A DNA stretch of 64,000 nucleotides from Sphingopyxis sp. 113P3 (GTDB lineage: Bacteria; Pseudomonadota; Alphaproteobacteria; Sphingomonadales; Sphingomonadaceae): contig NZ_CP009452.1 of the NCBI RefSeq assembly GCF_001278035.1, positions 3,939,501 to 4,003,500 of the forward strand, given 5' to 3'. Of the stretch, positions 1 through 50,282 are shown piece by piece. The number at the start of each line of letters is the position of its first letter. Positions within the stretch are counted from its first letter, which is position 1. The translations under genes and the position numbers were made by a program. The notes beneath the pieces are model-generated. The model worked only from the letters and a program-made list of their open reading frames with translations. It was not told the DNA's origin and made no database searches.

Positions 1-2
1 GC

Positions 3-941
3 ATCAACATCAACACGATGTGCATGAACATCATCACCGGCATGACCACGGTGCTCGAAAACTTCCAGGCCGAACGCTTCCTCGACCTCATAGAGGAGCA
101 TCGCATCACGACGGTTACGGTCGTGCCGACGATGCTGCGGCGCATCGTCGATGACGTGAAGGCCGGGCACTGGGACATCTCCTCCTTGCGCCAGGTCTGC
201 TACGGCACCATGCCCGCGACGCCCGCATTGATCCGTGAAGCCTACTCGACCCTGAACTGTCAGTTCCTCAACCGCTATGGCGTATCGGAGTCGACCGGCT
301 CGGTTGCGCTGCTGGACGATGTCGGGCATCGTCAGGCGCTCGATGGCGACATCGCCCTGCTTCGCTCGGTCGGCAAGGCGATGCCGCATGCCGACATCCA
401 GATCCGCGATGAAGACGGCAACGAAGTCCCCCGCGGCGAACTCGGTCTGGTGTGGATTGGCGGCGACACGGTCATGCAGGGCTATCTCAACCTGCCCGAG
501 CTCAACGCGAAGACGGTGTTTGGAAAATGGCTCAAGACCGGCGATTTCGGTCGGATGGATGAGCGCGGCTATGTGTTCCTCGGTGACCGTCAGCACAATA
601 TGATCGTGACGGGTGGCTTCAACGTCTATCCGAACGCCGTCGAAAACGCGCTGGCGGAGTTCAAGGGCGTGGGCGAGGTCGCGGTCTTCGGCATGCCGCA
701 TCCGCAATGGGGCGAGGCCGTGGTTGCGGCCGTGACCGTCTCCGGGGAGGCGGACGTGACCCCGGAGGCACTCGATCGCCACTGCCGCGAGAATGTGTCG
801 AAGTTCGAGGTGCCCAAGCACATCGCCATCCTTCCCTCGCTACCGCGCGGCAATACCGACAAAGTCGACAAACGCGCGATTCAGGCGATGTTTGCGGAGC
901 CGGGCAAATTGCCCTGGGCGATCGAGAAGGAGACCGCGTGA
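3..941 (+). CDS. ipfF: Aryl/acyl-CoA ligase, C-terminal part (5' end outside window), IpfF-like
   Basis: This is the C-terminal 312 residues of an AMP-forming acyl-CoA synthetase; the frame is open to the left edge, so the start is missing. It carries the adenylation motif NRYGVSESTG, the conserved WLKTGDFGRMDERGYVFLGD block and the hinge region with GGFNVYPNAVENAL, and ends with a lysine-containing GNTDKVDKRAI tail. The enzyme would activate a carboxylic acid to its CoA thioester using ATP. Its stop overlaps the start of the Rieske alpha gene (GTGATGG), so the two are translationally coupled. The neighbours (dioxygenase alpha and beta, SCPx thiolase, DUF35) match the ipf set for arylacetic acid degradation, which is why an arylacetate is the proposed substrate. 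The ligase assignment is firm; the substrate and the symbol rest on gene set and order only. Confidence 0.85.
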   Translation: MNINTMCMNIITGMTTVLENFQAERFLDLIEEHRITTVTVVPTMLRRIVDDVKAGHWDISSLRQVCYGTMPATPALIREAYSTLNCQFLNRYGVSESTGSVALLDDVGHRQALDGDIALLRSVGKAMPHADIQIRDEDGNEVPRGELGLVWIGGDTVMQGYLNLPELNAKTVFGKWLKTGDFGRMDERGYVFLGDRQHNMIVTGGFNVYPNAVENALAEFKGVGEVAVFGMPHPQWGEAVVAAVTVSGEADVTPEALDRHCRENVSKFEVPKHIAILPSLPRGNTDKVDKRAIQAMFAEPGKLPWAIEKETA

Positions 942-2236
942 TGGCCACAGCACCCGTTATCCCAGCCAGGATCGATTACCGTCATCTTGTCCAGGACGGG
1001 CGGCTTCATGGCTCGCTCTACACCGATCCGGCCATCTTCGCGCAGGAGATGGAAACAATCTTCCACCGCGGCTGGAGCTTCGTCGCCCACGATAGTGAGA
1101 TTCCAAATCGGGGCGACTTCGTCGTTCGCCGTGTCGGCACGCAGTCGCTCATCGCACTGCGCGGTAAGGACGGCGAGGTGAGTGTCTTCTACAATCGCTG
1201 TCCGCATCGCGGCGCGACGCTTTGCCAGACTCCCTCGGGAAATCGCCCGCGCATCACCTGCCCCTATCATGCATGGACTTTCGCGCTGGACGGCCGTTTG
1301 ATCGGCCTGCCCGACGAGGGCGCTTATCCGCCTGATTTCAGCAAGGCCGACGCGGGACTGACGCCCGTCGCGCGAATGGACAGCTATGGCGGATTCATAT
1401 TCGTGAACCTGGTTCCCAACCAGCTGACGCTGCGCGAACATCTTGGTCACGCGACCGAACTCATCGATGCGCTGCTCGGTCTCTCGCCCACCGGGCGGAT
1501 TCAGCTGACCGCCGGCTGGATGAAGCACAAGATGCGGTCGAACTGGAAGATGATCGTCGAGAATCAGGTCGACGGCTATCACGCGCCGATGGTGCACGGT
1601 TCGCTGATCGCGGCCAATCGTACCTTTGCGACGGTCCGTGACCGCAAGCCCACCTCGCCCACGCGCGTCCGCGATTTCGGCATGGGCCATACCGATATCG
1701 ATCACGCCAGCGACTATCGTGCCGCGGGAGATCGCTTGTTCCGTTGGACCGGCGGAATCGAGCCCGAGCGCCTGCCGGTTTATGTCAAGGCGATGAACGA
1801 CGCCTATGGACCTGAGGACGCGCGTCGCCGCCTGATCGAAGGGCCGCCGCATTCAATGCTGTTCCCGAATATATCCCTCGCGGAGATGAACATCATGGTG
1901 ATCGAGCCGATCGGTCCCGATGCGTCGATTCAATATACAACCCCTGTGTTCCTGGAAGGTGCCGACGACCTCAACGCGCGAACATTGCGTCGCTGCGAAG
2001 GAGCGATGGGTCCCGCCGGGTTCTTGATCGCCGACGATGCCGAGATTGGCGAACTCACTCAAATGGGCGTCGCCAACCTGGAGCCCGAATGGATCATCCT
2101 GTCGCGGGGCTTGGGCAAGGAGGAAGTCCTGCCCAATGGCGTGAAGCTGGCGGGATTGATGGATGAAACGAGCCAGCGCGGCTTTTGGAGCCATTATCGG
2201 GAGGTTATGGCTGCATCGCAGGAGATCGTGCATTGA
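941..2236 (+). CDS. ipfA: Rieske aromatic-ring dioxygenase, alpha (large) subunit, IpfA-like
   Basis: The 431-residue protein has the Rieske [2Fe-2S] ligands C87-x-H89 and C107-x2-H110 in NRCPHRG and CPYHAW, and the catalytic-domain motif D211-GYH214-APMVH219 carrying the bridging aspartate and two mononuclear-iron histidines. It would insert O2 into an aromatic ring to give a cis-dihydrodiol, using electrons from a ferredoxin and reductase that are not encoded here. The start at 941 was chosen because its ATG overlaps the ligase stop; the frame extends further upstream but only antisense-like sequence is read there. It is followed directly by the beta subunit. In the ipf system the substrate is the arylacetyl-CoA and oxygenation occurs at the side-chain-bearing carbon; that role is inferred from context. 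Confidence 0.92.
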   Translation: MATAPVIPARIDYRHLVQDGRLHGSLYTDPAIFAQEMETIFHRGWSFVAHDSEIPNRGDFVVRRVGTQSLIALRGKDGEVSVFYNRCPHRGATLCQTPSGNRPRITCPYHAWTFALDGRLIGLPDEGAYPPDFSKADAGLTPVARMDSYGGFIFVNLVPNQLTLREHLGHATELIDALLGLSPTGRIQLTAGWMKHKMRSNWKMIVENQVDGYHAPMVHGSLIAANRTFATVRDRKPTSPTRVRDFGMGHTDIDHASDYRAAGDRLFRWTGGIEPERLPVYVKAMNDAYGPEDARRRLIEGPPHSMLFPNISLAEMNIMVIEPIGPDASIQYTTPVFLEGADDLNARTLRRCEGAMGPAGFLIADDAEIGELTQMGVANLEPEWIILSRGLGKEEVLPNGVKLAGLMDETSQRGFWSHYREVMAASQEIVH

Positions 2237-2736
2237 CCGGTACCCTCCTTGATACCGCTCCGGCGGTCGATGTCGATCCAAAGGCGGTCGAACAGTTCCT
2301 CTATCACGAAGCCCGGCTGCAGGATGAGCACCGCTACGACGACTGGGAAGCGCTTTGGGCAGCCGAAGACATTCTCTATTGGGTTCCGACGCGCGAAGGG
2401 GCGGACCCGACGCGCGAGGTATCGTACATTTATGACAACCGCTCGCGTCTTGCGAGCCGGATCCGTCAGCTCAACACGGGTGTGAGACATTCGCAGGCGC
2501 CGCAGTCTCGGCTGCGGCGTTTGATCTCCAACATCGAGATCGGTGCGAGCGACGGCGGTGTCGCCGTCGAATCCAATTTCATGCTGGTCGAATCGCGCCG
2601 CGCGCTAATGACGATCTGGGCGGGGCGAACCGCGCATCTGCTCCAGCGATCGAACGGCAGCTTCAAGATCAAGCGCAAGGTCGTAACCCTGGTCAATTGC
2701 GAGGAAGCCATCGGCAATCTCGCATTCCTCGTTTAG
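2233..2736 (+). CDS. ipfB: Rieske dioxygenase, beta (small) subunit, IpfB-like
   Basis: This 167-residue protein belongs to the ring-hydroxylating dioxygenase beta-subunit family (SnoaL-like fold), shown by EQFLYHEARLQDEHRYDDW near the N-terminus and the arrangement LWAAEDILYWVP. It has a structural role in the alpha3beta3 oxygenase. A TTG start at 2233 is proposed because an AGGAG sits at 2220-2224, eight bases upstream, and the TTG overlaps the alpha-subunit TGA stop; an ATG further upstream at 2185 lies inside the alpha gene without a ribosome site. The family length is about 160-190 residues, which fits. Alpha and beta together form a standard two-subunit oxygenase. Confidence 0.88.
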   Translation: MTGTLLDTAPAVDVDPKAVEQFLYHEARLQDEHRYDDWEALWAAEDILYWVPTREGADPTREVSYIYDNRSRLASRIRQLNTGVRHSQAPQSRLRRLISNIEIGASDGGVAVESNFMLVESRRALMTIWAGRTAHLLQRSNGSFKIKRKVVTLVNCEEAIGNLAFLV

Positions 2737-2740
2737 CCGC

Positions 2741-3922
2741 GTGAAACCCCAGCTCGACGCGGCAATCGTCGGCCTGGGCCTGACAGGCTTGACGCGAACG
2801 GAGTCCCGTTCGGCAGCCGAGCTTGCGCGCCTCGCGGTGATCGCGGCGGCCGACGATGCGGGCATCGGAATTTCCGGCATCGATGGCCTGATCCTTTGCC
2901 GCTCCGGCGGCGCGAGCGACGCGGTGCTCGGACTCGATCTGCAGCGCGCGCTCGGCCTGCGCGAACTCAAGCTCAACCGCATCGTCCTGTGCGAAGGCGC
3001 AAGCGCGCTTGCCGCGATCCAGACGGCAGCGCTGGCGGTTTCCGCGGGGATGGCAACCAACGTCGCCTGCGTCTTCGCCGACGCACCCGTGACACCGGGT
3101 ACCCGGATAAGCACCGCATTCGGCCGGCAGAAAACCGGCATGGGAATGGAGGGGCTTCGCTACACTGCCGGCTTGTTCGGCGGCGCCGCGGTCCATGCGC
3201 TCAGCGCGCAGCGCTATCTGGCGCTCCACGGCTTGAGCGAGGATGTGCTCGCCGATGTGGCGATAACGACGCGCGCCTGGGCGAGCCTGAACCCCCACGC
3301 CTCCTATCGCAAGCCGTTGAGCCGCAGTGATTATTTCTCGGCCCGCTATATCGCCGACCCATTGCGACTCTTCGATTGCGCGGCCCCGGTCAATGGCGCG
3401 ATTGCAGTGGTCGTGACCACGGGGGCCCGTGCCGCTGACGGCGCCCAGCCTGCCGTGCGGATTCTCGCTTATGCCGAAGGGCATCCCGGCGCTCCCGACC
3501 GGCAAGGCTTCGACCGGGCGCTGACCCATGGTGGCGCGCTCGCCGCCAAGACAATGTTCGAAAGGACCGGGCTGACGCCCGCAGACATCGATATCTGCGA
3601 GTTCTACGATGCCTTCAGTATCATGCCGCTGCTCGCGCTGGAGAGCTATGGCTTCTATCCGCCGGGTCACGCTTGCAATGCCTATGCACAAGGAGCAGCG
3701 GCGCCCGGCGGAACGGCCATGCCGATCAACACGGGCGGGGGGCATCTTTCGGGCTACTATCTCCAAGGCATGACACCCGTGGCCGAAGCCGTGTTTCAGG
3801 CGCGTCGTGCCGCGGGCGATCGCCAGTGCGCGCGCGCGCGGACCATCCTTGTGACCAACGAAGGCGGCAGGCTCGACTATCATGCCGGAATGATTTTCGG
3901 CTCGGCGGGGCAATGGCTATGA
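2741..3922 (+). CDS. ipfD: SCPx-type thiolase-like protein (lipid-transfer type), IpfD-like
   Basis: The 393-residue protein is a thiolase-fold protein of the SCPx/Ltp type. It starts with GTG at 2741. At the place where classical thiolases have the nucleophilic cysteine it reads EGASALAA, so it probably does not run a Claisen thiolysis. It keeps the C-terminal tyrosine-containing ICEFYDAFSI and the GGGHLSGYY segment typical of Ltp retro-aldolases that work with a DUF35 partner. The next gene is exactly such a partner and overlaps by four bases. In ipf systems this protein removes the acyl side chain of the oxygenated arylacetyl-CoA, releasing a catechol. Family placement is strong; chemistry and substrate are inferred. 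Confidence 0.85.
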   Translation: MKPQLDAAIVGLGLTGLTRTESRSAAELARLAVIAAADDAGIGISGIDGLILCRSGGASDAVLGLDLQRALGLRELKLNRIVLCEGASALAAIQTAALAVSAGMATNVACVFADAPVTPGTRISTAFGRQKTGMGMEGLRYTAGLFGGAAVHALSAQRYLALHGLSEDVLADVAITTRAWASLNPHASYRKPLSRSDYFSARYIADPLRLFDCAAPVNGAIAVVVTTGARAADGAQPAVRILAYAEGHPGAPDRQGFDRALTHGGALAAKTMFERTGLTPADIDICEFYDAFSIMPLLALESYGFYPPGHACNAYAQGAAAPGGTAMPINTGGGHLSGYYLQGMTPVAEAVFQARRAAGDRQCARARTILVTNEGGRLDYHAGMIFGSAGQWL

Positions 3923-4323
3923 CATCAACGCCCGTTCCTGGGGCCGACCCCGCATCGGCTCACTTCTTCCATTCGCTGGACGAAGGGCGGCTCGATCTGC
4001 TGGTGTGCCGACAATGCGGAACGGCCCATCTCGCGATATCGGTGTGCGATGTATGCGGAAGCATCGATTTCTCGTCCGAACCCGCGAGCGGCATCGGCAT
4101 CATCTACAGCTTCACGCGCGTGCATATCGCCCACCATCCCGCCTTTGCCGATCAGTTGCCCTTTTGCGGCGGCATCGTCGAGCTGGCGGAAGGCCCGCGC
4201 CTGTTTGCGCCCCTGCTCGGCGAAGAGCCAATTTCGGTGGGAGCACCTGCAATATTCGAATGGCAGCAGATCGACGGCCGGGGCTTCGCCGCGTTTCGCG
4301 TGTCGGCTGCAGCACCGCAATGA
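3919..4323 (+). CDS. ipfE: DUF35 OB-fold / zinc-ribbon partner of the thiolase, IpfE-like
   Basis: This 134-residue protein has a rubredoxin-like zinc ribbon with C30-x2-C33 and C43-x2-C46 followed by an OB-fold region (GIIYSFTRVHI onward), the DUF35 architecture. DUF35 proteins bind acyl-CoA and form complexes with Ltp/SCPx thiolase-like partners. The ATG at 3919 overlaps the thiolase stop (ATGA) and has a GGCGGGG at 3904-3910 in proper spacing; an ATG at 3913 is possible but too close to that site. Its adjacency to the IpfD-like gene fits a two-protein deacylating complex. Confidence 0.88.
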   Translation: MTSTPVPGADPASAHFFHSLDEGRLDLLVCRQCGTAHLAISVCDVCGSIDFSSEPASGIGIIYSFTRVHIAHHPAFADQLPFCGGIVELAEGPRLFAPLLGEEPISVGAPAIFEWQQIDGRGFAAFRVSAAAPQ

Positions 4324-4724
4324 AGATCGACAGGATCGATCACATCGTCCTCACGGTCGCTTCGATCGAGAGCACGTGCGATTTCTATCAGCACGTGCTC
4401 GGCTTCGAACGGCATTCGCCTGCCGGCAAGCCGATCTCGCTCCACTTCGGCCGCCAGAAGATCAATTTGCACCAGGCCGACCGCACCTTCGATCCCAAGG
4501 CAAGGCACCCGACTGCCGGCGCAGCCGATTTCTGCCTGATTGCGCTCGAACCGATCGAAGCGGTTGTGGTTCATCTCGAGCGGCACGGCGTCGCGATCGA
4601 AAAGGGCCCCGTTGCGCGCACCGGCGCGGTCGGCCCGATGGATTCGGTCTATTTTCGCGATCCCGATGGCAACCTGGTCGAAGTCAGCCACTACCGAACG
4701 GCGGAGGACCAGACCGTCCGCTGA
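4320..4724 (+). CDS. VOC-superfamily (glyoxalase/bleomycin-resistance-like) protein
   Basis: This 134-residue single-domain protein has the vicinal-oxygen-chelate pattern: IDHIVLTVASIESTCDFYQ at the N-terminus with a candidate metal histidine H8, a central LHFGRQKINLH strand, and the terminal FRDPDGNLVEVS with candidate metal ligand E121. Members include small dioxygenases, epimerases and glyoxalases, so the reaction cannot be named. Its ATG overlaps the DUF35 stop (ATGA), making it the last gene of the ipf-like operon, and a role on a pathway intermediate is likely. Its 3' end overlaps the convergent phosphotransferase-like gene by about 40 bases. Confidence 0.8.
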   Translation: MKIDRIDHIVLTVASIESTCDFYQHVLGFERHSPAGKPISLHFGRQKINLHQADRTFDPKARHPTAGAADFCLIALEPIEAVVVHLERHGVAIEKGPVARTGAVGPMDSVYFRDPDGNLVEVSHYRTAEDQTVR

Positions 4725-5826
4725 ACCCCGTCGGCAGGCCGCGGTGCGCAACGAAATCCGGCGACAGCGGCGGCACGGCCAGTCCGAGCCGCTCGGCAAT
4801 GATCTGTGTCGCGGTATTTGCATGCGCCATTCGCGTGGTCGGCGGCAGACGCCCGCTCTCAACGCCGATGTCCGTCGCACGTATCAAGGTCGTGGCGATG
4901 AAGAAGGCGCCAAGCACCATATAATAGTCGAGGTCGTGCAATTCCCGGCCGCTTTTCCGGCAATAATGTTCGACCACGTCCCTCTCATCGGGCCAGCCGG
5001 CGGAGCGTTCGACGCCGATCATCTCGGCGTGAAAGCTGTCCATCATAATCCAATACCCAACATCCAACGCCGGCGGGCCTATGAATGCCCCTTCCCAGTC
5101 CAGCACAGCTGCGATCGATTGGTCTGCGGCAAACAGGATGTTACCGGGCCGGGCATCGCCCCATAGCAGCACGTCGCCATCGTCGCGCAGCGACCCTCGC
5201 GCCTGCAACAGATAGTCGAGCGCTTGATCCGTAAGCGGGAATGGCCGCCCGCGCGCCGCCCAACCGTACCAACTCGCCAGCTGTCGGAGGTGTCTGTCGA
5301 TCCCTACATCCTGCATCTCGCTCCCCGTCAGGAAGCCATGCGACCGGCGCCAGTCGACCGCATGTATTCCGACCACAGCGTCGAGTCCGTTGAAGGCCAG
5401 GGTTCGTCGCTGGTCGGGAGTAAGCTCGGTCAGCAGGCCGCGCATGTGCATCGATGGCCGGCCCAGCGGTGAGCGTCCCTCGACATGCCGCATGAGCAGA
5501 AACGGCGCGCCTAGCACTGCACCACTCGGCTCGACGCCCATCATTGGCGCGACCGGCACATCGCTGTGCTTCGCCACGGCATCGATCACGCGATATTCGC
5601 GAACGATATCCGGCTTGAGGAAGAGCTGCTTGCCGCGTTGCTCGAAACGGATGACATACGCGGTCTCCGCCGCGTCCGCCGACGTCCGGGCTATGAGCTT
5701 GAGCAATTCGCTCGACTGGCCACCCATGAGCGGATCGAGCGATAGAATCTCGCTTTGGAAGCCGAACAGGGGTTGTTCACGGAGCCAGGCGGCCAATCGC
5801 GCCCTTTGCTCAGTCGAGATGTTCAT
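4684..5826 (-). CDS. Aminoglycoside-phosphotransferase-fold kinase-like protein
   Basis: The 380-residue protein has the APH/choline-kinase fold. The catalytic loop reads LLWGDARPGNILF, with the Asp and Asn of the HxDxxxxN pattern but Trp-Gly in place of His-Gly, and the metal-binding AVLDWEGA follows. Relatives are common in acyl-CoA catabolic clusters (the ACAD10/11 phosphotransferase type that phosphorylates 4-hydroxyacyl-CoA), which is the most useful guess here. The start at 5826 (MNISTEQRARLAAW) lies inside the end of the upstream reductase gene, a 17-base overlap. The extra upstream ATG would give an unlike N-terminal extension. It closes a three-gene minus-strand operon. Confidence 0.8.
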   Translation of the reverse strand: MNISTEQRARLAAWLREQPLFGFQSEILSLDPLMGGQSSELLKLIARTSADAAETAYVIRFEQRGKQLFLKPDIVREYRVIDAVAKHSDVPVAPMMGVEPSGAVLGAPFLLMRHVEGRSPLGRPSMHMRGLLTELTPDQRRTLAFNGLDAVVGIHAVDWRRSHGFLTGSEMQDVGIDRHLRQLASWYGWAARGRPFPLTDQALDYLLQARGSLRDDGDVLLWGDARPGNILFAADQSIAAVLDWEGAFIGPPALDVGYWIMMDSFHAEMIGVERSAGWPDERDVVEHYCRKSGRELHDLDYYMVLGAFFIATTLIRATDIGVESGRLPPTTRMAHANTATQIIAERLGLAVPPLSPDFVAHRGLPTGFSGRSGPPPFGSG

Positions 5827-6760
5827 CGCAAACCTTGATGACGATCTTGGCATGCGGGCTGCCGCACTGCGCCTCCCATGCGGCTCCAACGTCCTCCAAG
5901 TCGTAGGTTAGGGTGTCGATGGTCCAATTGCCGGTCTTGGCGTAGGCAAGCAGCCGCTCGAACGCCGCCTGCCGCTCCGCCGCAGGCCGGATCAGTTCGC
6001 CGGTATCGACGCCGTGATGATGGCGGCGGCGCAACTCGGTGAGCGTGAGGGTCATCGTCCGTCCTGCGCGTGTGCCGATGCTCATCAGCCGTCCGCCCTC
6101 GGCGACTGAGCGCATCGCCGCCTCGGCGGGCGCGCCGAACAGGGGATCTAGTACCACGTCGTATCCGCGCTCGCCCTTTTCCGCCGCCAGCGCGGAATCG
6201 TCATCCCCCTGTCCAAGCTGCACGACGGCATCGAGAACTCCATGATCCTTCATCCGTTCGAGCGCGGGCAACGAGCGCGCTGCCCCGACCACCGCGCCCG
6301 CGCCAAGTTGCCGCGCAACCAACGCACCGATCTGCCCGACCGGTCCTGTCGCGCCGAGGATCAGCACCCGCTCACCCGGCCGGATCTTCGCTTCTTCCAG
6401 CGGAATCAGCGCACCGAGCCCCGCGAGCGCCAAGGCGATCACCTGTTGCGGATCGGCATCGTCGGGGATCGGCCAGATCTCCGCCTCCGGCACGACCGTG
6501 ATTTCGGACATCGCGCCCTGCTGCGGGATTGAATGGCCGAAATAGACCCGCCGACCATCATCGAGCAAACCTATTCCCTCCCCGCCGATAATGTAGGGAA
6601 ATACAGGATTCTTGTAGATCCCCCGAACGCGCAGCACGTCGGTTGGCTGAAGCCCCGCCCACTGAACCTTGATCCGCAAGGCTCCGTCGGTCTCGACCGG
6701 TTCCGGAACATCGGTAAAATAGGGCTTGGTATTGAGCGCATCCACCACCGCGGCTCGCAT
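5810..6760 (-). CDS. Zinc-independent medium-chain dehydrogenase/reductase (quinone oxidoreductase type)
   Basis: This 316-residue protein has an N-terminal GroES-like domain (IGGEGIGLLDDGRRVYF) and a Rossmann domain with the NADPH motif LILGATGPVGQIGALVARQLGA. No zinc-binding cysteine set is visible, which places it with quinone oxidoreductases and enoyl reductases rather than alcohol dehydrogenases. A GGAGGAG lies just upstream of the ATG at 6760. It sits between an epimerase-like gene and a phosphotransferase-like gene transcribed in the same direction. Its substrate is unknown; a reduction of an unsaturated carbonyl in catabolism is plausible. Confidence 0.85.
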   Translation of the reverse strand: MRAAVVDALNTKPYFTDVPEPVETDGALRIKVQWAGLQPTDVLRVRGIYKNPVFPYIIGGEGIGLLDDGRRVYFGHSIPQQGAMSEITVVPEAEIWPIPDDADPQQVIALALAGLGALIPLEEAKIRPGERVLILGATGPVGQIGALVARQLGAGAVVGAARSLPALERMKDHGVLDAVVQLGQGDDDSALAAEKGERGYDVVLDPLFGAPAEAAMRSVAEGGRLMSIGTRAGRTMTLTLTELRRRHHHGVDTGELIRPAAERQAAFERLLAYAKTGNWTIDTLTYDLEDVGAAWEAQCGSPHAKIVIKVCDEHLD

Positions 6761-24251: not shown

Positions 24252-24704
24252 TCAAACTGCGTGGCGGAACACCATCTGTGCGATGCAGGCCGGCTTTTCG
24301 GCCCCTTCCCGCTCGACCACATATTCGATGATGGTCTGAAACATCGGGCCAACCGGCTCGAAGCTCAGGATCTTGGCGGCCACCCGCAGGCGCGATCCGA
24401 CTGGAACCGGACTGGGAAAGCGTACCTTCTCATAGCCGTAGTTCAGTCCCATCTTGAATCCGTCAAACTTGAACATGCCTTGATTCAAGGCTGCGATCAT
24501 CGATAGCGTGAGCAGGCCATGGGCGATGGTCGTGCCGAAGGGCCCGGTCTTGGCCCTCTCGACATCGACATGGATCCACTGATGGTCGCCGCTGGCACGC
24601 GCGAATTCATTTACGCGCTCCTGCGTAATCTCAAGCCATTCGCCGGGCCCCAGGGTCCGGCCGACAAGACCGGGCAGCGTTTCGCGGCTCAACAAGGTCG
24701 TCAT
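24252..24704 (-). CDS. MaoC-like (R)-specific enoyl-CoA hydratase
   Basis: This 150-residue hot-dog protein has the hydratase-2 motif FARASGDHQWIHVDVERA with the catalytic Asp and His, followed by GPFGTTIAHGLLTLS. It would hydrate an enoyl-CoA to a 3-hydroxyacyl-CoA. It is the last gene of a minus-strand operon with an SDR, a DUF35 protein and a crotonase, three bases after the SDR, so hydration followed by oxidation in a side-chain beta-oxidation is the natural reading. Confidence 0.88.
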   Translation of the reverse strand: MTTLLSRETLPGLVGRTLGPGEWLEITQERVNEFARASGDHQWIHVDVERAKTGPFGTTIAHGLLTLSMIAALNQGMFKFDGFKMGLNYGYEKVRFPSPVPVGSRLRVAAKILSFEPVGPMFQTIIEYVVEREGAEKPACIAQMVFRHAV

Positions 24705-24707
24705 GGT

Positions 24708-25628
24708 TCAACCTCCCAGGCGCAGGCCGGCTGTCCGCGTGCCGAACAGATCCGTGCCGATGATCCGGCCAAGTTCTTCCGTCTTCCACCGCTTTTCGCC
24801 GCTCGACAGTCCCGCGCCCTCATGCCAGCCCTTGAGCACCGACAGACGGTCGCGAACCGCCCGGATACACTGGCCGCTGACCATCTGCGCCTCATCGCTG
24901 GCGAGCCACGCCACAACCGGCGATCCCAATGACGGGTCCATCGGGTCGAAGATCTCGGCGTCGAATTCGTCCGGCTCCTTGGGCGCGCCCATGCCGATTG
25001 TCGATGAGATGCGCGTCAGCCCCCCCGGCGAGATGAGGTTCGCGGTCACGCCGATCGATGCGAGTTCCAAAGAGAGAGTGAGCGTAAGTCCGGCGATGCC
25101 GGCCTTCGCAGCGGCATAGTTGGTCTGACCGAAATTGCCGAGCAGGCCGGCGCCCGAGGTGGTGTTGATGATCCGGCCGGGATAGCGGCCGTTGCCCGCC
25201 TTGGCGGCAGCACGCCAATGTTGCGCGGCCGCACGGCAGACCAGCCAGGTGCCGCGAAGATGGACCTTCATCACCAGGTCGAAATCCTCGACGGACATGT
25301 TCCAGATGGCCTTGTCACGGACGATACCGGCGTTGTTGACGACGATGTCGATCCGGCCCCACTCGTCGATGCCGCGCTTCACCATCGCCGCGGCCGCGGC
25401 CTCGTCGCTGACATCGCCATAGTCGGCAACGGCTTCGCCGCCGCGCGATTTGATCAAGTCGACCACCACATCGGCATCGCGTCCCTGCCCCTCGCCATTC
25501 GCGTTACCGCCAAGGTCGTTGATGATCAGCTTTGCGCCTTGCCGCGCCAGTTCGAGCGCGTGGCCGCGTCCGATACCGTGCCCGGCCCCGGTGACCAGCG
25601 CCACCTTGCCTTCAAGAATTCCCGTCAT
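24708..25628 (-). CDS. SDR, 3-hydroxyacyl-CoA dehydrogenase-like (MFE-2 type)
   Basis: The 306-residue protein has the cofactor motif TGAGHGIGRG at residues 13-22, NNAG at 98-101 and the catalytic set S158, Y171 and K175 in NTTSGAGLLGNFGQTNYAAAK. The long insert with NDLGGNANGEGQG after the second strand is typical of the dehydrogenase domain of multifunctional enzyme type 2, which oxidises 3-hydroxyacyl-CoA. The MaoC-type hydratase next to it would supply the second half of that enzyme as a separate protein. Confidence 0.88.
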   Translation of the reverse strand: MTGILEGKVALVTGAGHGIGRGHALELARQGAKLIINDLGGNANGEGQGRDADVVVDLIKSRGGEAVADYGDVSDEAAAAAMVKRGIDEWGRIDIVVNNAGIVRDKAIWNMSVEDFDLVMKVHLRGTWLVCRAAAQHWRAAAKAGNGRYPGRIINTTSGAGLLGNFGQTNYAAAKAGIAGLTLTLSLELASIGVTANLISPGGLTRISSTIGMGAPKEPDEFDAEIFDPMDPSLGSPVVAWLASDEAQMVSGQCIRAVRDRLSVLKGWHEGAGLSSGEKRWKTEELGRIIGTDLFGTRTAGLRLGG

Positions 25629-25634
25629 GTGCTT

Positions 25635-26054
25635 CTAGCTCCTTGCCGGACTGAATACCGGAATGGTGACTTCGTCGGAGATCGCCTCGAACCCGAGTTC
25701 GACCGGCATGCCGATCTCGAGCTCCTTGGGCGATGCGCCGGTGATGATCGTGGTGACGCGCACGCCCTCCTCCAGATCAACCTGGGCCGCGACATAGGGC
25801 AGCTTGGCGTTGAACGGTGGAAGGTCGTTCACGAACACTGTCGACCAGGTGTAGAGCGTGCCCCCACCCTTGGCGGGGACGAGCGTGACCATCTCGCTCC
25901 AGCAATGCGGACACATCGGCCTCGGATAGTAATGGACTTGCTCGCAGGACTCGCATCGCCCCAGCATCAGCGTGCCTTCGCGCAATGCATCCCAGAACGG
26001 TTTGGTCTCTGCTTCGATCGTCGGCAGGTCGAAGCGCGGCCCGCTGCTCGCCAT
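25635..26054 (-). CDS. DUF35 OB-fold / zinc-ribbon acyl-CoA-binding protein
   Basis: The 139-residue protein has the zinc ribbon CESCEQVHYYPRPMCPHC (two CxxC pairs) and an OB-fold with TLYTWSTVFVND and a valine-rich strand region. This is the second DUF35 gene of the window. Its ATG at 26054 overlaps the stop of the crotonase gene (TGATG). The matching thiolase-like gene is divergent at 27003, so the two partners are in adjacent divergent operons rather than side by side. Confidence 0.88.
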   Translation of the reverse strand: MASSGPRFDLPTIEAETKPFWDALREGTLMLGRCESCEQVHYYPRPMCPHCWSEMVTLVPAKGGGTLYTWSTVFVNDLPPFNAKLPYVAAQVDLEEGVRVTTIITGASPKELEIGMPVELGFEAISDEVTIPVFSPARS

Positions 26055-26899
26055 CAATATCCCCTGAAGTTGACGGGGCGCTTCTCCACGAAGGCAGCAA
26101 CCCCTTCCTTGACGTCATCGGTCTTGCCATTGATCTCCTGTGCCATCGCTTCGGCGAGGAAGGCGGCCTGGCGATCGCTGTCGAGCGAGGCGTTCAACAG
26201 ACGCTTCGACAGGCCGATCGCCGTCGTCGCGCCTCCCGCTAGGCGTCCAACCAGTTCGTCAGCCTCGACAGCCAGTTTTTCCGCGGCGCAAACACGATTG
26301 ACCATACCGAGCGCGAGCGCATCGCGCGCCGTCAAGCGGTCCCCGAGAAAGGCAAGTTCCTTGGCCTTCTGCAAGCCAACGCGCCGCGGCAGGAGATAAG
26401 CCCCCGCCGCATCCAGCGCGAGGCCCCGCAGCACGAACGGCTGCGAGAACCAAGCCTCTTCAGCGGCGGCGACCAGGTCGCAGGCGAGTGCGAGATGGGC
26501 GCCCATGCCGGCCGCCGGGCCCTGCACCGCCGCAACGACCGGCTTGCCGCAGTCGAGCACCGCCGCAATGAGCCGCTGCGCTCCCCCGAGCATCGTCCGC
26601 ATCGTCATCCCGACCGGCCGTGGGGTCGCCATCGCGCTCGACATGCGGCCGACATCGGCGCCCGAACAGAAGTGCTTGCCGGTCGATTGCAGCAGCACGG
26701 CGCGAATCTCGACATCCGTATCGGCCTCGGCAAGCAGCGCGATCAGCCGTTCGCGACCCTCTGCGGCGATCGCGTTCGCGCGGTCGGGCCGATTGAGCGT
26801 GATGCGCAGGACGCCGTTGGCGACCTCGCCCAACACCATGTCGGTCGCACTCTCTTCCAACGCCATTCCTCCGCGCTTCTCAAGCCGTTGTCCAAACAT
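26054..26899 (-). CDS. Enoyl-CoA hydratase/isomerase (crotonase family)
   Basis: The 281-residue protein has the crotonase segments GKHFCSGADVGRM and QGPAAGMGAHLALACDL. The usual catalytic-region glutamate is not obvious in FVLRGLALDAAGAYLLPR, so isomerase or another crotonase activity is as likely as hydration. A downstream ATG at 26866 with a closely spaced GGAGGA is an alternative start. It heads the four-gene minus-strand operon and is divergent from the thiolase-like gene. Confidence 0.85.
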   Translation of the reverse strand: MFGQRLEKRGGMALEESATDMVLGEVANGVLRITLNRPDRANAIAAEGRERLIALLAEADTDVEIRAVLLQSTGKHFCSGADVGRMSSAMATPRPVGMTMRTMLGGAQRLIAAVLDCGKPVVAAVQGPAAGMGAHLALACDLVAAAEEAWFSQPFVLRGLALDAAGAYLLPRRVGLQKAKELAFLGDRLTARDALALGMVNRVCAAEKLAVEADELVGRLAGGATTAIGLSKRLLNASLDSDRQAAFLAEAMAQEINGKTDDVKEGVAAFVEKRPVNFRGY

Positions 26900-27002
26900 G
26901 GCCTAGCGAGGGTCCACCGCGCTCGACGAGTCCCCATTACGGTGACAGTCAGTAGGGTATGAATGGCCTATGAATGCCATGATCAATCGAAGGGGACATT
27001 GC
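26900..27002. promoter_or_regulatory. Divergent promoter region between crotonase and SCPx thiolase genes
   Basis: The 103-base gap carries the promoters of both transcription units of the second thiolase/DUF35 module. AAGGGG at 26990-26995 is the ribosome site for the start at 27003. No clear operator was recognised. Confidence 0.35.
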
Positions 27003-28148
27003 ATGGGTCGGCGAGTTGCAATTGCGGGCGTAGGATTGTCGGGACAGCCCGGATCGCCCGAGGCGACACCATATGCGCTGCACGCCCAGGCCTCGCGCGC
27101 GGCGATTGAGGAGGCTGGCTTGAAACCATCGGACATCGACGGGTTTGCCTCGGCGGGCCTCGGCGCGCTGCAACCGCTCGAAGTCGCCGAATATATGGGG
27201 CTGAGACCGCGCTGGATCGACTCGACGGGCGTCGGCGGCGCGACCTGGGAAGTCATGGCCGCCCACGCCGCCGACGCAATCGCCGAGGGACATGCCGACG
27301 TCATTCTGCTGGCCTATGGATCGACCGCACGAACCGATCTCAAGCGGAAGCTACGCACCGCAAGCCTGTCGTGGGGCACGCGCGGACCAAGTCAGTTCGA
27401 AGCGCCTTTCGGGCATACGCTGATTTCCAAATATGCGATGGCCGCGCGGCGTCACATGTACGAATATGGCACCACGCTGGAGCAGATGGCGGAGATCGCG
27501 GTTTCGGCCCGCTATAATGCGAGCCTCACCCCCTTCGCTGCCTATCGCGAGCCGATCGAGATCGCCGAGGTGCTCGACGGCCCCATGATCGCCGATCCCT
27601 TTACCAAGCTGCAATGCTGCATCCGCTCCGATGGCGGCGCCGCGGTCGTCATGGTGGCGGAGGACCGTATTGCCGACCTCGCGGTCAAGCCGGTTTGGGT
27701 TCTCGGCAGCGCGGAGGCCGGCTCGCACGTTTCGATGAGCCAGTGGGACGACTTTACCACGTCGCCGGCGGCAATGACCGGCCCGGTCGCCTTCGCACGC
27801 GCCGGCATTCGTCCGGACGAGATCGATGTTGCCCAGATCTACGACGCCTTCACCTACATGGCGCTGATCACGCTCGAGGATCTCGGCTTCTGTGCAAAAG
27901 GCGAAGGTGGCGCCTTTGTCGAAGGCGGTCGTCTTCGCGTGGACGGCGCGCTACCGGTCAACACCGACGGCGGCGGCCTTTCCGCGTGCCACCCGGGCAT
28001 GCGGGGACTCTTCCTGCTGGTCGAGGCCGCGCGCCAGCTGCGCGGCGGCTGCGGCGCGCGCCAGGTGCAAGACGCGAAGCTCGCCTGCGTCAGCGGAACC
28101 GGCGGATGGTTCTGCTCGAGTGGCACGATGATTCTCGGCGCCGACTGA
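27003..28148 (+). CDS. SCPx/Ltp-type thiolase-like protein (probable retro-aldolase)
   Basis: The 381-residue protein begins MGRRVAIAGVGLSGQPG and has the thiolase-like fold. At the nucleophile position it reads STGVGGATWEVM with no cysteine, so thiolysis is unlikely. QIYDAFTYMALIT and NTDGGGLSACHPGMRG match the C-terminal half of Ltp-type aldolases. The ATG at 27003 has GAAGGGGA eight bases upstream; an ATG at 26970 lacks one. With the DUF35 gene across the divergent promoter it forms a second thiolase/DUF35 pair, next to a hydratase and dehydrogenase that would make the beta-hydroxy or beta-keto acyl-CoA substrate. Confidence 0.85.
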   Translation: MGRRVAIAGVGLSGQPGSPEATPYALHAQASRAAIEEAGLKPSDIDGFASAGLGALQPLEVAEYMGLRPRWIDSTGVGGATWEVMAAHAADAIAEGHADVILLAYGSTARTDLKRKLRTASLSWGTRGPSQFEAPFGHTLISKYAMAARRHMYEYGTTLEQMAEIAVSARYNASLTPFAAYREPIEIAEVLDGPMIADPFTKLQCCIRSDGGAAVVMVAEDRIADLAVKPVWVLGSAEAGSHVSMSQWDDFTTSPAAMTGPVAFARAGIRPDEIDVAQIYDAFTYMALITLEDLGFCAKGEGGAFVEGGRLRVDGALPVNTDGGGLSACHPGMRGLFLLVEAARQLRGGCGARQVQDAKLACVSGTGGWFCSSGTMILGAD

Positions 28149-29186: not shown

Positions 29187-29223
29187 CGGCGATAGCCGCG
29201 GGAGAGCGACGAGGAAACGGACC

Positions 29224-46821: not shown

Positions 46822-48123
46822 TCAGCCCGCGAGCTTGTAGCGCACCGGCAGCCGCTTGATGCCGCCGACCGAAATGGAGTCGATCCGCTTCGGTTCGCCC
46901 GCCAGCTCGACATGCTCGACGCGATTGAAGAGCTCGTCGAAGAATACCCCCATTTCCAACTTCGCCAGATGCTGGCCCAGACAGACATGCGCGCCAAAGC
47001 CGAATGCCATTTGCGGGTTGGGCTGGCGGTCAACGCGGAATTCGAACGGCGCTTCGAAGATGTCCTCGTCGCGATTGGCCGAGGGGTAGGACAACATCAG
47101 CCAATCACCCGCGCGAATCTGCTGACCGCGCAGCTCATAGTCGGCCAATGCCGTGCGCATGAAGTGATTGACCGGGGAGGTCCAGCGGATCGCTTCGTTG
47201 ACCAGCGATGGGATGAGGCTGCGGTCGGCCTTGACCTTGGCGAACTCCTCGGGGCGCTCGGCCAGCGCCCAGACCGCGCCGGCGGTCGAGGAGGCGGTCG
47301 TGTCGTGCCCTGCCGTTGCGATCGTCAGATAATAGCTCACCGCGTCCGCTTCGGTGATCAACTCGCCATTGATCGTCGAATTGGCGATGACCGAGGCGAC
47401 GTCGCTCGTCGGGTTGGCGCGGCGGTTGGCCACGATGGCCGCGAAATAGTCGTACATCTCGTGAAGAATGTCGTGGTTCGCGGTCGCGCCGATCGAATTG
47501 CCGGTCTGCTCGCCGGCCAGTTCTTCGTCACGCGGGTTGAAGAAGCGCTGGGTCATTGCAAGCAACATGTCTTCGTCGGACCGCGGCAAGCCGAGCAGGC
47601 TCAGGATCACGCGCAGCGGGAACCTGTGCGAGACGGCATTGAGAAAGTCGATCTCGTCCCGCCCCTCCATGGCGTCGATCGCCTCGCGTGCGAGGCCGCG
47701 GATATCCTCTTCGAGGACCTTCACGCCTTTTGGTGCAAATTGCGCCGCGGTCACCAGCCTGTAACGCATGTGCACGGGCGCATCCATGGTCAGCAACGAG
47801 CGATTAACCGCGCGGCCGCCTTCAGCTTCGATCGCCTCCGCACGTTGCGCGAAGTTGCGGTCGATCAGCGTCTTACGCGCGCCATTATTTGCGAATATGC
47901 CGGGCTGTCGGCCAATTTCTTGAATATCATTGTATTTGGTGACCATCCAGAACGGGTCATAGCCTTCCGCCGCGGCGACGCTCAGGGGCATTTCCCGGCG
48001 GAGCCAGGTCAGGTCCTGCTGCAATTGATCCCATTGACCATAGGCTTTGGGATCGACCAGACGGCCGGCGATATCGCCGGGCATATGAACTGCGGAAATG
48101 TCAGCCGATACCTTTGTGGTCAT
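46822..48123 (-). CDS. Cytochrome P450, CYP108 (P450terp)-like
   Basis: The 433-residue P450 has the I-helix AGHDTTASS at 271-279, ExxR as E310-AIR313 and the heme loop FGFGAHVCLGQHLAKLEM with C381. Stretches such as DPFWMVTKYNDIQEIGRQPG, FMRTALADYELRGQ and MLSYPSANRDEDIF closely resemble P450terp, the alpha-terpineol hydroxylase, which hydroxylates a methyl group of a branched alicyclic. GGAGGT precedes the ATG at 48123. It needs a ferredoxin and reductase that are not encoded in the window. It lies between an SDR and a LysR gene on the same strand. Confidence 0.92.
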   Translation of the reverse strand: MTTKVSADISAVHMPGDIAGRLVDPKAYGQWDQLQQDLTWLRREMPLSVAAAEGYDPFWMVTKYNDIQEIGRQPGIFANNGARKTLIDRNFAQRAEAIEAEGGRAVNRSLLTMDAPVHMRYRLVTAAQFAPKGVKVLEEDIRGLAREAIDAMEGRDEIDFLNAVSHRFPLRVILSLLGLPRSDEDMLLAMTQRFFNPRDEELAGEQTGNSIGATANHDILHEMYDYFAAIVANRRANPTSDVASVIANSTINGELITEADAVSYYLTIATAGHDTTASSTAGAVWALAERPEEFAKVKADRSLIPSLVNEAIRWTSPVNHFMRTALADYELRGQQIRAGDWLMLSYPSANRDEDIFEAPFEFRVDRQPNPQMAFGFGAHVCLGQHLAKLEMGVFFDELFNRVEHVELAGEPKRIDSISVGGIKRLPVRYKLAG

Positions 48124-48290
48124 TTCAGATACCTCCGATTCAATGGTCGCGCCCGCGCATGAGGCGGTCGACAGCGCAGTGAATTTGCCGCCCGCCACCG
48201 TCGGACCGACCGCTGCCGCTTCTGCGACGCGTCCATCGTCGTCTGCACCAAGGGCTTCGCCGCGTCCTTCGCTAATGATCGAGAGCAGAG

Positions 48291-48305
48291 ATAGTTGAAA
48301 CCTAT
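48291..48305. promoter_or_regulatory. ATAG-n7-CTAT, possible LysR half-site pair upstream of the P450
   Basis: ATAG and CTAT arms seven bases apart (a T-n11-A arrangement) lie in the 191-base gap between the P450 start and the end of the LysR gene. Nothing else was recognised in the gap apart from the GGAGGT ribosome site. Confidence 0.25.
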
Positions 48306-48314
48306 GGGTGCCGA

Positions 48315-49265
48315 TCAATTGTCGCTGACCAGCGTCGCAAGCCACCGGCCGTCGGCGACCATTTCGCGCAGTAACTGAGTTGCCAGATCCTCTACCTCGA
48401 TCGATGCGCGGGTGAGCCTTTGAGCGGGATTGCGGACGAACGATACACTGCGGGACAGGTCGATCCCTGCAATAAGGGCCGCGGAAAGCTCGCCGCTAGT
48501 AAGTTCCGCACGGATCGCCGCATGCGAGAGCAATGTATAGCCGAAGCCTGCCGCCACAAGCGTCTTCGTATGCGCCAATGAGTCAATCTCGGTCGTCACA
48601 GCCAGCGACAGATTCTCCATGTGCAGCCGCCGTTCGATCAGCTTGCGCAGGCCATGCGAAACCGACGGGAGGATGAAATCCTGACCACGAAGCACGCCCT
48701 GCTCCACCGGTTCGATGGCGATTCCGAACTCGTCAGCCTTTCCGAAAGCGCCCGCCGGCCCGACGAGAAGCAGCGTCTCGCGCGCGATTACCTTGCTCGC
48801 CAGATGATGCAGGCCTTCTGCATCGTAGAGGACGCCGAGCTCAATCCGCCCTTCCTCCAGCCAGCGCCGGATCGTGCCGCTCATCGCTTCGCGGACATGG
48901 ATGTTGACGAGCGGCAGCGCCGCACGCGACGCGATCAGCAATTGCACGCCCAAGATCAGGCTGGCCGTGCCTGGTAAGCCGATCGCGACCTGTCCTTGCG
49001 GCACGCGTTCGGCGCCTTGGACCTCCTCGCGCGCGCGGTTCATCGCCTGGAGGATGGTGGCGGCATGCTCCTGCAGCATACGGCCGGCGTCGGTGGCCGC
49101 GACGCCGCGTGACGTTCGCCGGAACAGCTTGGTGCCGAACTCGTCTTCCAACCGCAACAACTGCTGGCTGAGCGACGGCTGCGCGATGCCCAACCGGTCG
49201 GCTGCCTCCGTGATCGAAGCGCACCGGCTGATCATCATGAAGTTGCGGAGCTGAACCTCGTCCAT
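48315..49265 (-). CDS. LysR-family transcriptional regulator
   Basis: The 316-residue protein has the LysR DNA-binding region MDEVQLRNFMMISRCASITE with AADRLGIAQPSLSQQLLRLE. Its start region is almost the same as that of the LysR at 29224, so the two are paralogues. The ATG at 49265 was chosen to match that N-terminus. It is divergent from the hydratase/acyl-CoA dehydrogenase pair and upstream of the P450 in the same direction, so it may control both. Confidence 0.9.
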   Translation of the reverse strand: MDEVQLRNFMMISRCASITEAADRLGIAQPSLSQQLLRLEDEFGTKLFRRTSRGVAATDAGRMLQEHAATILQAMNRAREEVQGAERVPQGQVAIGLPGTASLILGVQLLIASRAALPLVNIHVREAMSGTIRRWLEEGRIELGVLYDAEGLHHLASKVIARETLLLVGPAGAFGKADEFGIAIEPVEQGVLRGQDFILPSVSHGLRKLIERRLHMENLSLAVTTEIDSLAHTKTLVAAGFGYTLLSHAAIRAELTSGELSAALIAGIDLSRSVSFVRNPAQRLTRASIEVEDLATQLLREMVADGRWLATLVSDN

Positions 49266-49448: not shown

Positions 49449-50282
49449 ATGAACGACCAGCCCACACTAGAAGCCGCAACAATCGCTGACCTCGCACGAC
49501 GGCTCGACCGTTCCGAGCGCGAGCGCGAACAGATTCCGCAATTCTCACTCGAACATCCCGGCATGACCGTCGCTGATGCCTATGCAGTCCAGCGTGCATG
49601 GGTCGCCTTGAAGGTCGCCGACGGGCGCAAGATCGTCGGGCACAAGATCGGCCTGACGAGTCGAGCGATGCAGCGCACGTCGAACATTCCCGAGCCGGAC
49701 TATGGCGCGTTGCTGGACGATATGGTCTTCCAGCCGGGCGGCGACATCGACATCTCGCGATTCATCCTTCCTCGCGTCGAGCTTGAACTCGCCTTCATTC
49801 TCAAGTCGCCATTGGAAGGGCCAAACTGCACGATCTTCGACGTGCTGAATGCGACTGATCATGCCGTTCCCGCGATCGAGATTATCGACCAGCGCATTCA
49901 GCCCATCGATCCCGCGACGGGCCGGACCCGCAAGGTGTTCGATACGATTTCGGACAATGCCGCCAATGCCGGCGTCGTGCTGGGCGGGCTTCCGGTCCGG
50001 CCGCATGACGTCGATCTGCGATGGGTCGCTGCGCTGTGCTACCGCAATGGCGTGATCGAAGAATCTGGCGTTGCCGCGGCGGTGCTCAATCACCCGGCTG
50101 CCGGACCCGCATGGCTCGCGAACAAGCTCTATCCCTATGGCGAGCGGCTGGAACCGGGGGAGATTATTCTAGGCGGGTCGTTTACCGCACCGGTGGCGGC
50201 CAGCCATGGCGATACCTTTCATTTCGACTATGGCCCGCTCGGCTCGATCGCTTTCCGCACTATCGATTCCAGGAAGCAATGA
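49449..50282 (+). CDS. hpaH: 2-oxo-hept-4-ene-1,7-dioate / 2-hydroxypentadienoate hydratase (HpaH/MhpD family)
   Basis: The 277-residue protein closely matches HpaH-type hydratases through most of its length: [55 protein letters not shown] and a near-identical [20 protein letters not shown]. These add water to the dienol left after C-C hydrolysis of a meta-cleavage product. It is probably the next step after the extradiol dioxygenase and hydrolase at 33.3-35.1 kb, although 14 kb away. Its stop overlaps the acyl-CoA dehydrogenase start. No aldolase follows in the window. Confidence 0.9.

Follow-up and report, generated by a model that had tools for sequence, protein, structure and literature searches.

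The five genes at the beginning of the window (the whole stretch of 64,000 nucleotides of Sphingopyxis sp. 113P3 that was analysed) probably encode, with a likelihood of about 70%, an Ipf-type aryl-acyl-CoA deacylation machine that belongs to a sister lineage separate from the ibuprofen operon and would act midway through the pathway of a wider gene island. Gene content, conserved residues and fold give good support to its predicted reaction class, namely CoA activation, 1,2-dioxygenation of the ring and deacylation by a retro-aldol step, in keeping with the preference for retro-aldol cleavage over thiolysis expressed in the initial annotation.

Gene make-up, junctions and electron-transfer partners

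All five genes were confirmed on the forward strand, and their products carry the expected Pfam domains (AMP-binding, Rieske plus Ring_hydroxyl_A, Ring_hydroxyl_B, Thiolase_C_1 and OB_ChsH2_C). The ligase gene is cut by the window edge; it starts 627 b upstream, the whole gene being L004:9373-10941 and encoding 522 aa. The operon and its neighbours are as follows:

1..941, + strand: CoA ligase (AMP-binding), 3' part; 41% identical to the pIBU218 ligase, in a clade with the Ipf-side ligases (100/99)
941..2236, + strand: alpha subunit of the Rieske ring-hydroxylating oxygenase (431 aa), with Rieske ligands CPH...CPYH and the iron-site motif DGYHAPMVH
2233..2736, + strand: beta subunit of the Rieske oxygenase; start codon either TTG 2233 or TTG 2185
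2741..3922, + strand: putative SCPx thiolase-like retro-aldolase of 393 aa, with Gly86 in place of the nucleophilic Cys and with Tyr289 and Tyr340
3919..4323, + strand: DUF35 (OB_ChsH2_C) partner; complete CxxC-x9-CxxC motif, ATG 3913 as alternative start
4320..4724, + strand: VOC/glyoxalase-fold protein, sixth gene; ATGA-coupled, present in 4/6 orthologous loci
4684..6760, - strand: APH-like phosphotransferase and zinc-type alcohol dehydrogenase; adjoining the operon in 5/6 and 4/6 orthologous loci, respectively

The overlapping ends initially described hold for the ligase/alpha junction (TGATG, 939-943, 1 b overlap), for the alpha/beta junction provided that beta starts at TTG 2233 (TTGA, 2233-2236) and for the thiolase/DUF35 junction (ATGA, 3919-3922), but not between beta and thiolase, where a gap of 4 b precedes the thiolase GTG at 2741. 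Since a further ATGA overlap (4320-4323) joins the DUF35 and VOC genes, the latter is taken as a sixth coupled gene, and the junctions indicate that the genes of the operon are translationally coupled. The VOC protein scored below the cut-off of every extradiol model tested; its role as a ring-cleaving enzyme is left open, the LigB protein of the island appearing the better candidate.

Electron-transfer partners had been reported as absent from the window, and profile matches agree: Fer2 (PF00111) gives 5 matches genome-wide and 0 inside the window, while the 8 genome-wide matches to Rieske (PF00355) include 2 in the window, corresponding to the alpha subunit and to a LigXa-type oxygenase at 22.9-24.2 kb. 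A stand-alone Rieske ferredoxin is missing from the window but present elsewhere in the genome. The ibuprofen system in the strict sense has a dedicated ferredoxin and reductase (IpfH, IpfI); here, a Fer2 reductase of 325 aa and two ferredoxins, one of Rieske and one of Fer2 type, 2.3 to 3.1 Mb off in contig coordinates, are candidate partners only.

Comparison with steroid aldolases and with the ibuprofen operon

The steroid side-chain aldolases Ltp2-ChsH2 (6ok1) and Sal-Shy (9myr) resemble the window system in fold, DUF35 partner, Cys-less thiolase position and Tyr base, and Ltp2 has in common with the window protein a second Tyr (Tyr294/Tyr344 in Ltp2, Tyr289/Tyr340 here). On the contrary, Ltp2 and Sal share only 27-31% identity with the window thiolase, their systems are devoid of a Rieske oxygenase, their hydratase domain is missing from the window operon, and the His or Cys of their YDHF/YDCY motif is Ala (YDAF) in the window protein. 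The shared fold and tyrosines raise the alternative of a plain Ltp2/Sal-type side-chain aldolase acting on a beta-hydroxyacyl-CoA, with the Rieske enzyme at some other step and the ring-to-side-chain bond left uncut. This alternative also draws on the next relatives, which include a P450-linked thiolase-DUF35 pair without nearby Rieske genes in Rhodococcus sp. 008, and on the alpha subunit being about equally near to non-Ipf Rieske systems and to IpfA. It is nonetheless improbable, given that Rieske alpha and beta, thiolase and DUF35 are kept together in each of three separate lineages, mostly accompanied by a ligase and in differing orders, that thiolase and alpha distances co-vary (21 presumed pairs, matched by equal length of the longest contig), and that a dearomatised diol is the substrate assigned to the thiolase-DUF35 pair in the Ipf lineage.

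Regarding that lineage, the IpfABDEF system of Rhizorhabdus wittichii MPO218 (pIBU218) and Sphingomonas Ibu-2 has in common with the window operon the five protein families, their arrangement on a single strand and a Cys-less thiolase with the Gly and the two Tyr; by analogy, the reaction is likely to be shared. The initial interpretation is supported in part: the reaction class holds up well, but the Ipf label is too narrow, with thiolase and ligase falling outside the Ipf clade. Alignment to the Ipf proteins found homology throughout, but at identities of only 37-47% to those of pIBU218 (ligase 41%, alpha 40%, beta 47%, thiolase 45%, DUF35 37%), whereas pIBU218 and Paraburkholderia pBN3 are 66-74% identical for ligase, alpha, beta and thiolase. 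Gene order also differs (F-A-B-D-E in the window versus A-B-D-E-F), IpfE lacks the CxxC zinc motif that is complete in the window DUF35 protein, and the Ipf set of pIBU218 is carried by a conjugative plasmid and flanked by IS6100 copies, while the window operon is chromosomal.

In the thiolase tree, the Ipf side (96/88) has the window clade (99/99) as its sister group, with joint support of 98/93, and in the ligase tree the window five (100/100) stand beside the Ipf six (99/97; joint 100/99). The beta tree recovers both groups (window five 99/99, Ipf six 92/97), their branching order not being settled. In the alpha tree, the window side (100/99) and the Ipf side (99/100) are separate, window, Ipf and actinobacterial alphas are grouped at only 71/70, and the data neither establish nor reject a single window plus Ipf clade (AU p = 0.312). 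Thiolase trees were built from the 120 matches listed of 484 (115 in the large tree, after exclusion of 5 with <=370 aa, and 22 in the small one), and the alpha tree from 27 of the 120 listed of 1361; ligase and beta trees used the plain LG+G4 model, with a ligase outgroup that does not hold together. Locus L011, a near-copy of L010, was excluded from the trees, and L012 was used in the large thiolase tree only.

Closer relatedness to separate steroid or phthalate systems, named initially as an argument against Ipf kinship, is not found for thiolase and ligase, both of which join the Ipf side in their trees. For alpha it is found in part, with respect to other CoA-linked systems: Rhodococcus/Streptomyces plasmid proteins (47-48%, 390-407 bits) and four CoA-linked Rieske proteins of M. 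avium, R. opacus, Variovorax and Sulfitobacter (41-44%, 343-360 bits) both score above IpfA (40%, 323 bits). Benzoate, anthranilate and phthalate enzymes come far lower, and membership in steroid, phthalate or benzoate systems was rejected on such scores, alpha reaching 189.4 bits for benzoate dioxygenase (NCBIfam cut-off 780.95), 165.5 for anthranilate dioxygenase (671.9) and 178.5 for 3-phenylpropionate dioxygenase (830).

It is very unlikely that this is a true ipf operon whose owner degrades ibuprofen via IpfFABDE orthologs: the families and Cys-less thiolase in common, together with known ipf carriers being likewise Sphingomonadaceae, speak for it, but the identities, the position of thiolase and ligase in the trees, and a different gene order, neighbourhood and DUF35 protein speak against it. 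As judged from sequence, the operon is a relative of the ibuprofen operon in a sister lineage, and no copy of it. The lower pathway of the Ipf system consists of IpfL and the dehydrogenase IpfM (PMC9195938), and HpaI, SDR and second SCPx gave no match in the 14.8 kb of the pIBU218 ipf region examined. Clusters of ipf-like type have been published from beyond the ibuprofen degraders, in 10 strains that include Cycloclasticus (PMC6063337); a Cycloclasticus thiolase (P0103) is placed on the Ipf side of the tree, away from the window side.

The claimed absence of a nucleophilic Cys from the thiolase-like protein was borne out. In a profile alignment the Cys of the PDB thiolase 7yvy falls on Gly86, as does that of a Cys-bearing homologue from M. 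avium plasmid pP7a (L078), and in a multiple alignment of the clan this position is Gly in 131/131 rows, the two tyrosines that are catalytic in the Ltp2 aldolase being likewise kept in 131/131. Membership among SCP2 thiolytic thiolases fails on Gly86, and Cys84, two residues before it and off the nucleophile position, is ruled out as nucleophile by both alignments. A genuine thiolase of ordinary beta-oxidation using another Cys is scarcely credible, for although Cys84 occurs in 53 of 96 window-side rows (sides, window or Ipf, assigned by hand from trees) and Cys213 in 130/131 clan rows, the nucleophile position is invariably Gly and the remaining 43 window-side rows have Gly, Ala, Leu or Val in place of Cys84.

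Distribution and the wider island

Six Sphingomonadales MAG loci present the operon in identical order, with protein identities of 54-92% and an alpha gene that is split in two frames at L012; conservation across these loci goes beyond chance. A function widespread in the family was rejected: in an even draw of 397 family genomes, matches at E 1e-79 or better were obtained in 3 (G000, G062, G258), the next-best genome giving 4.8e-55 and the 10 other same-genus genomes listed 3.8e-48 at best, and the phylum (398 genomes) and class (385) draws exceeded 200 bits in G000 only, with <=4 first-look candidates scored per genome, so that single misses are possible.

Beyond the operon, the island comprises:

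24252..26899, - strand: MaoC hydratase, SDR, second Zn-ribbon DUF35 and enoyl-CoA hydratase (putative side-chain module); SDR, DUF35 and enoyl-CoA hydratase also occur on actinobacterial plasmids
26970..28148, + strand: second Cys-less SCPx thiolase-like protein; 68-73% identical to actinobacterial plasmid copies
31815..35114, - strand: aldehyde dehydrogenase, MhpC/HsaD-like hydrolase and LigB extradiol dioxygenase; nearest solved structure 8k04, 2,3-dihydroxyphenylpropionate dioxygenase
46822..48345, - strand: cytochrome P450; nearest solved structures P450terp and 3tkt
49449..51451, + strand: HpaH-like hydratase and acyl-CoA dehydrogenase; 59-65% identical to actinobacterial plasmid copies

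The HpaH hydratase (49449-50282) exceeds the TIGR02312 cut-off (425.5 versus 351.5 bits). Eleven island genes (AMP ligase, SDR, ECH, the second Cys-less SCPx/DUF35 pair, HpaH-, HpaI- and MhpC-like enzymes, alpha, beta and thiolase) recur at 40-73% identity in 4/4 Rhodococcus/Streptomyces plasmid lineages read, and the acyl-CoA dehydrogenase in 3/4, these clusters being known from annotation alone. In the MAG and plasmid comparisons, the boundaries of the SDRx sequence were set mechanically, a stop near its end being read as X. The clusters of Rhodococcus pDK3, pLP4 and pGD02.2.1 and Streptomyces NBC_00564 also carry the operon-type DUF35 and ALDH, as the window does, identities over the whole shared set being 39-73%; on the contrary, they are located on plasmids, follow the order thiolase-DUF35-alpha-beta(-ligase), have a different P450 and an adjacent ligase only 32-35% identical to that of the window, and no match to LigB or to the window VOC was found in the stretches read. 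Neither the operon nor the pathway shared with plasmids was described in the titles and abstracts searched, subscription papers lying outside reach.

Proposed pathway and its meaning

Gene content, coupling, residues, fold, phylogeny and co-occurrence across phyla are observations, while the reactions, their order and the substrate outlined here are predictions. Before deacylation, the P450, SDR, hydratase and second SCPx-DUF35 pair would shorten a branched side chain. The ligase would then produce an arylacetyl- or 2-arylalkanoyl-CoA, and the Rieske alpha and beta subunits, with electrons from a reductase and a ferredoxin whose genes lie elsewhere in the genome, would add O2 across the side-chain-bearing ring carbon and its neighbour. 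The thiolase-like protein and its DUF35 partner would cut the ring-to-side-chain bond in retro-aldol fashion, with Tyr289 as putative base and Tyr340 as putative acid, so that the ring becomes aromatic again as a catechol and acetyl- or propionyl-CoA is set free. Afterwards, LigB extradiol cleavage, the MhpC-like hydrolase, HpaH and HpaI (encoded just upstream) would process the ring.

We read the island as a natural pathway, so far undescribed, that would degrade an aromatic compound bearing a branched side chain; our guess at this compound is a terpenoid-like arylalkanoate. A broader proposal, put forward tentatively and with some doubt, is that this pathway is common to Sphingomonadales and Actinobacteria, that the branched arm is isoprenoid-like, and that two successive Cys-less SCPx-DUF35 steps first shorten the arm and then perform the Rieske-coupled cut at the ring. 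The Ipf-type core might then be an old module that serves the natural breakdown of aryl-terpenoids or arylalkanoates, with the ibuprofen operon as its plasmid-borne cousin in new use.

The publications found on genes for removing an acid side chain directly from a benzene ring deal with ibuprofen degraders, in which these genes seemed a response to the drug. A sister lineage, chromosomal here and conserved in sphingomonad MAGs, and a third on actinobacterial plasmids suggest an older, natural chemistry, and with both lineages at hand the origin of the ibuprofen genes becomes a testable question. The co-occurring genes further provide a concrete list of enzymes to assay in search of the natural substrate.

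Composition and kinship of the operon

The window (G000:C1:3939501-4003500, in a genome of 4.66 Mb and two contigs) opens on these genes, minus coordinates being bases upstream of it:

-627..941, CoA ligase, Pfam domain as expected, crossing the window edge (upstream part read from stretch L004)
941-2236, Rieske alpha, Pfam domain as expected
2233-2736, Rieske beta, Pfam domain as expected
2741-3922, thiolase-like protein, Pfam domain as expected
3919-4323, DUF35 protein, Pfam domain as expected
4320-4724, VOC protein, directly after DUF35 with an overlapping junction

Counting that of VOC, four junctions overlap by 1-4 bases and one leaves a gap of 4 bases. The five-gene set of the initial annotation is confirmed. 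Its Ipf-type interpretation is partly supported: the operon probably acts in the Ipf manner, but it is not Ipf, identities being 37-47% and thiolase and ligase standing beside the Ipf clade in their trees. Against pIBU218, the ipf plasmid of Rhizorhabdus wittichii MPO218, BLASTP identities were 41% for the ligase, 40% for alpha (IpfA), 47% for beta, 45% for the thiolase-like protein and 37%, over 101 residues, for DUF35. Other Ipf-side clusters lie on three plasmids (Chelativorans, Paraburkholderia, Variovorax) and in two family genomes (G062, G258).

In the thiolase tree, Rieske-linked actinobacterial proteins split off first, leaving the Ipf side (96/88) and the window side (99/99) as sisters (98/93); a larger tree also recovered both groups, and the ligase tree joined them at 100/99 with actinobacterial ligases outside. 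For thiolase and ligase the simplest reading is a single ancestor of five genes, which alpha and beta leave unproven. In the alpha tree the window side adjoins the actinobacterial side with weak support (83/87), and a single clade of window and Ipf alphas was neither demonstrated nor rejected (AU p 0.31). By tblastn score, the closest proteins to the window alpha are six from Rhodococcus and Streptomyces plasmids (390-407 bits), followed by those of M. avium, Variovorax SRS16, Sulfitobacter and R. opacus, from other gene settings (343-360 bits), and, behind these, pIBU218 IpfA (323 bits); the Ipf-side Chelativorans alpha scored 358 bits.

The window DUF35 carries CxxC-x9-CxxC. A C4 motif is present in 10 of the 14 operon DUF35 partners compared; the pIBU218 and Paraburkholderia partners are without one, and those of Chelativorans and Variovorax show CxxC...CxxH. 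PMC6063337 records ipf-like clusters in ten strains, and occurrence outside ibuprofen degraders is therefore already known; it also names 2-phenylpropionic and tolylacetic acids as compounds deacylated by Ibu-2.

A separate Rieske alpha/beta group with ECH genes was observed in stretches L078-L081 (M. avium pP7a, Variovorax SRS16, R. opacus PD630, Sulfitobacter THAF37), probably another CoA-linked ring pathway; three of the four hold a distant SCPx protein (24-28%), and the M. avium copy has the thiolase Cys. Further oxygenases of the window genome are:

22898-24157, LigXa_C-family Rieske oxygenase, no match in the compared loci
14088-16064 and 40229-41914, FMO-like monooxygenases, Baeyer-Villiger type by look, 32-33% matches in an R. 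rhodochrous plasmid stretch
L074:4910-6683, another Rieske alpha/beta pair, located some 35 kb upstream of the operon and 36% identical to the window alpha; the 20 kb read gave no thiolase match

Conservation in Sphingomonadales

The nearest operon relatives are Sphingomonadales throughout, from which the host is taken to be a sphingomonad. The order ligase-alpha-beta-thiolase-DUF35 is kept, with proteins 54-92% identical, in six MAGs (Sphingopyxis, Qipengyuania, Sphingomonas 32-66-10, Erythrobacter UBA2510 and two without finer classification). A divergent HpaI-like aldolase gene lies upstream in all six loci, VOC downstream in four, APH nearby in five and ADH in four. In L013 the second thiolase and an ECH-DUF35-SDR-MaoC block stand immediately upstream of HpaI and the operon, and in L012 ALDH, MhpC and LigB genes come after VOC, APH and ADH. 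Being rare within the family, the operon is considered accessory, and the transposases inside the island and at its end fit an accessory, mobile history. Neighbouring features are:

4684-5889, APH-type phosphotransferase, beside the operon in 5/6 sphingomonad loci, 37% match in the Streptomyces region
28203-30207, possible LuxR-like regulator (named by eye from its C-terminus; no Pfam match at E 1e-8) and LysR regulator, candidate regulators; in L009 both lie at most about 5 kb from the orthologous operon, as does LysR in L012
18765-20150 and 59018-63889, DDE, two IS110-type transposases and rve integrase

Island genes shared with actinobacterial plasmids

On pDK3 of Rhodococcus DK17, thiolase-DUF35-alpha-beta-ligase adjoin hydrolase, hpaH, HpaI and acyl-CoA dehydrogenase genes. 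For comparison, 51 genes of the extended window were searched against parts of four plasmids: pDK3, pLP4, pGD02.2.1 and that of Streptomyces NBC_00564.

Identity to the plasmid stretches
Second thiolase: 68-73%
SDR: 64-66%
hpaH: 59-62%
Acyl-CoA dehydrogenase: 59-65% (absent from R. rhodochrous stretches)
Zn-ribbon DUF35: 57-59%
ECH: 54-61%
Beta: 48-55%; alpha: 47-48%
HpaI: 47-54%
AMP ligase: 45-51% (two further ligases only 31-35%)
Hydrolase: 44-47%; ALDH: 39-41%
Operon thiolase: 40-44%
Operon DUF35: no tblastn match, although an OB-fold gene is annotated at that place

At 45% over 70% of the length, 15 of the 51 genes were matched. In a like-for-like control on mechanically listed ORFs of at least 150 aa, the same threshold matched 16 of 137 in the window plus upstream sequence (74 kb), although two of these only shadow the gene of the second thiolase; a 74 kb stretch taken from another part of the genome gave 0 of 145. 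Genome-wide best matches of pDK3 hpaH (61% vs 49% for the runner-up), SDR (64% vs 43%) and acyl-CoA dehydrogenase (61% vs 34%) all fall inside the window. In a search of 72,556 plasmids, the six Rhodococcus and Streptomyces records, amounting to about four lineages, scored best for alpha; no further record was counted at or above 60% for the second thiolase or, within the 5000 best-scoring records, for SDR.

In six Ipf-side stretches (14.8-21.2 kb) HpaI, SDR and the second thiolase were not found; hydratase appeared at 34-36% in two and hydrolase at 25-26% in three. Since PMC9195938 places the pIBU218 lower pathway away from its operon, these absences are taken as no more than suggestive.

Putative route of degradation

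25644-28148, second SCPx thiolase-like protein (Cys-less, like the operon's), complete Zn-ribbon DUF35 (zf-ChsH2 + OB_ChsH2_C) and ECH, 54-73% on Rhodococcus/Streptomyces plasmids
35229-39212, CitE-MaoC-CaiB-acyl-CoA dehydrogenase block, matched in the Streptomyces NBC_00564 plasmid region

P450 and alcohol/aldehyde dehydrogenases would oxidise a methyl group. A branched arm would next be trimmed by AMP ligase, acyl-CoA dehydrogenase, hydratase, SDR and the second SCPx-DUF35 pair until an arylacetyl- or 2-arylpropionyl-CoA is left, whose remaining arm the operon would take off. LigB (nearest solved relative 8k04, a 2,3-dihydroxyphenylpropionate dioxygenase) would cleave the catechol ring, and hydrolase, HpaH and HpaI would complete the breakdown. 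Against the cut-offs of curated models, HpaH scores above (425.5 vs 351.5), HpaI slightly under (357.2 vs 368.8) and the hydrolase 110.9 vs 400 with the nearest, HsaD. CaiB, MaoC, CitE and ACAD are 51, 42, 51 and 33% identical to the Streptomyces stretch; the block, with 158.4 vs 375 on the RipC model, bears a weak resemblance to itaconate, methylsuccinate or citramalyl-CoA use. The window P450 is P450terp-like and that of pDK3 CYP124/125-like, which points to methyl groups of terpenoid-like compounds; the substrate of P450terp is terpineol, and 2-arylpropionates are chemically conceivable from isopropyl-arenes and bisabolanes.

No description of the sphingomonad operon lineage or of the shared plasmid pathway was found in the literature searched. 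The putative cross-phylum pathway that surrounds the operon is the most interesting result of this analysis.
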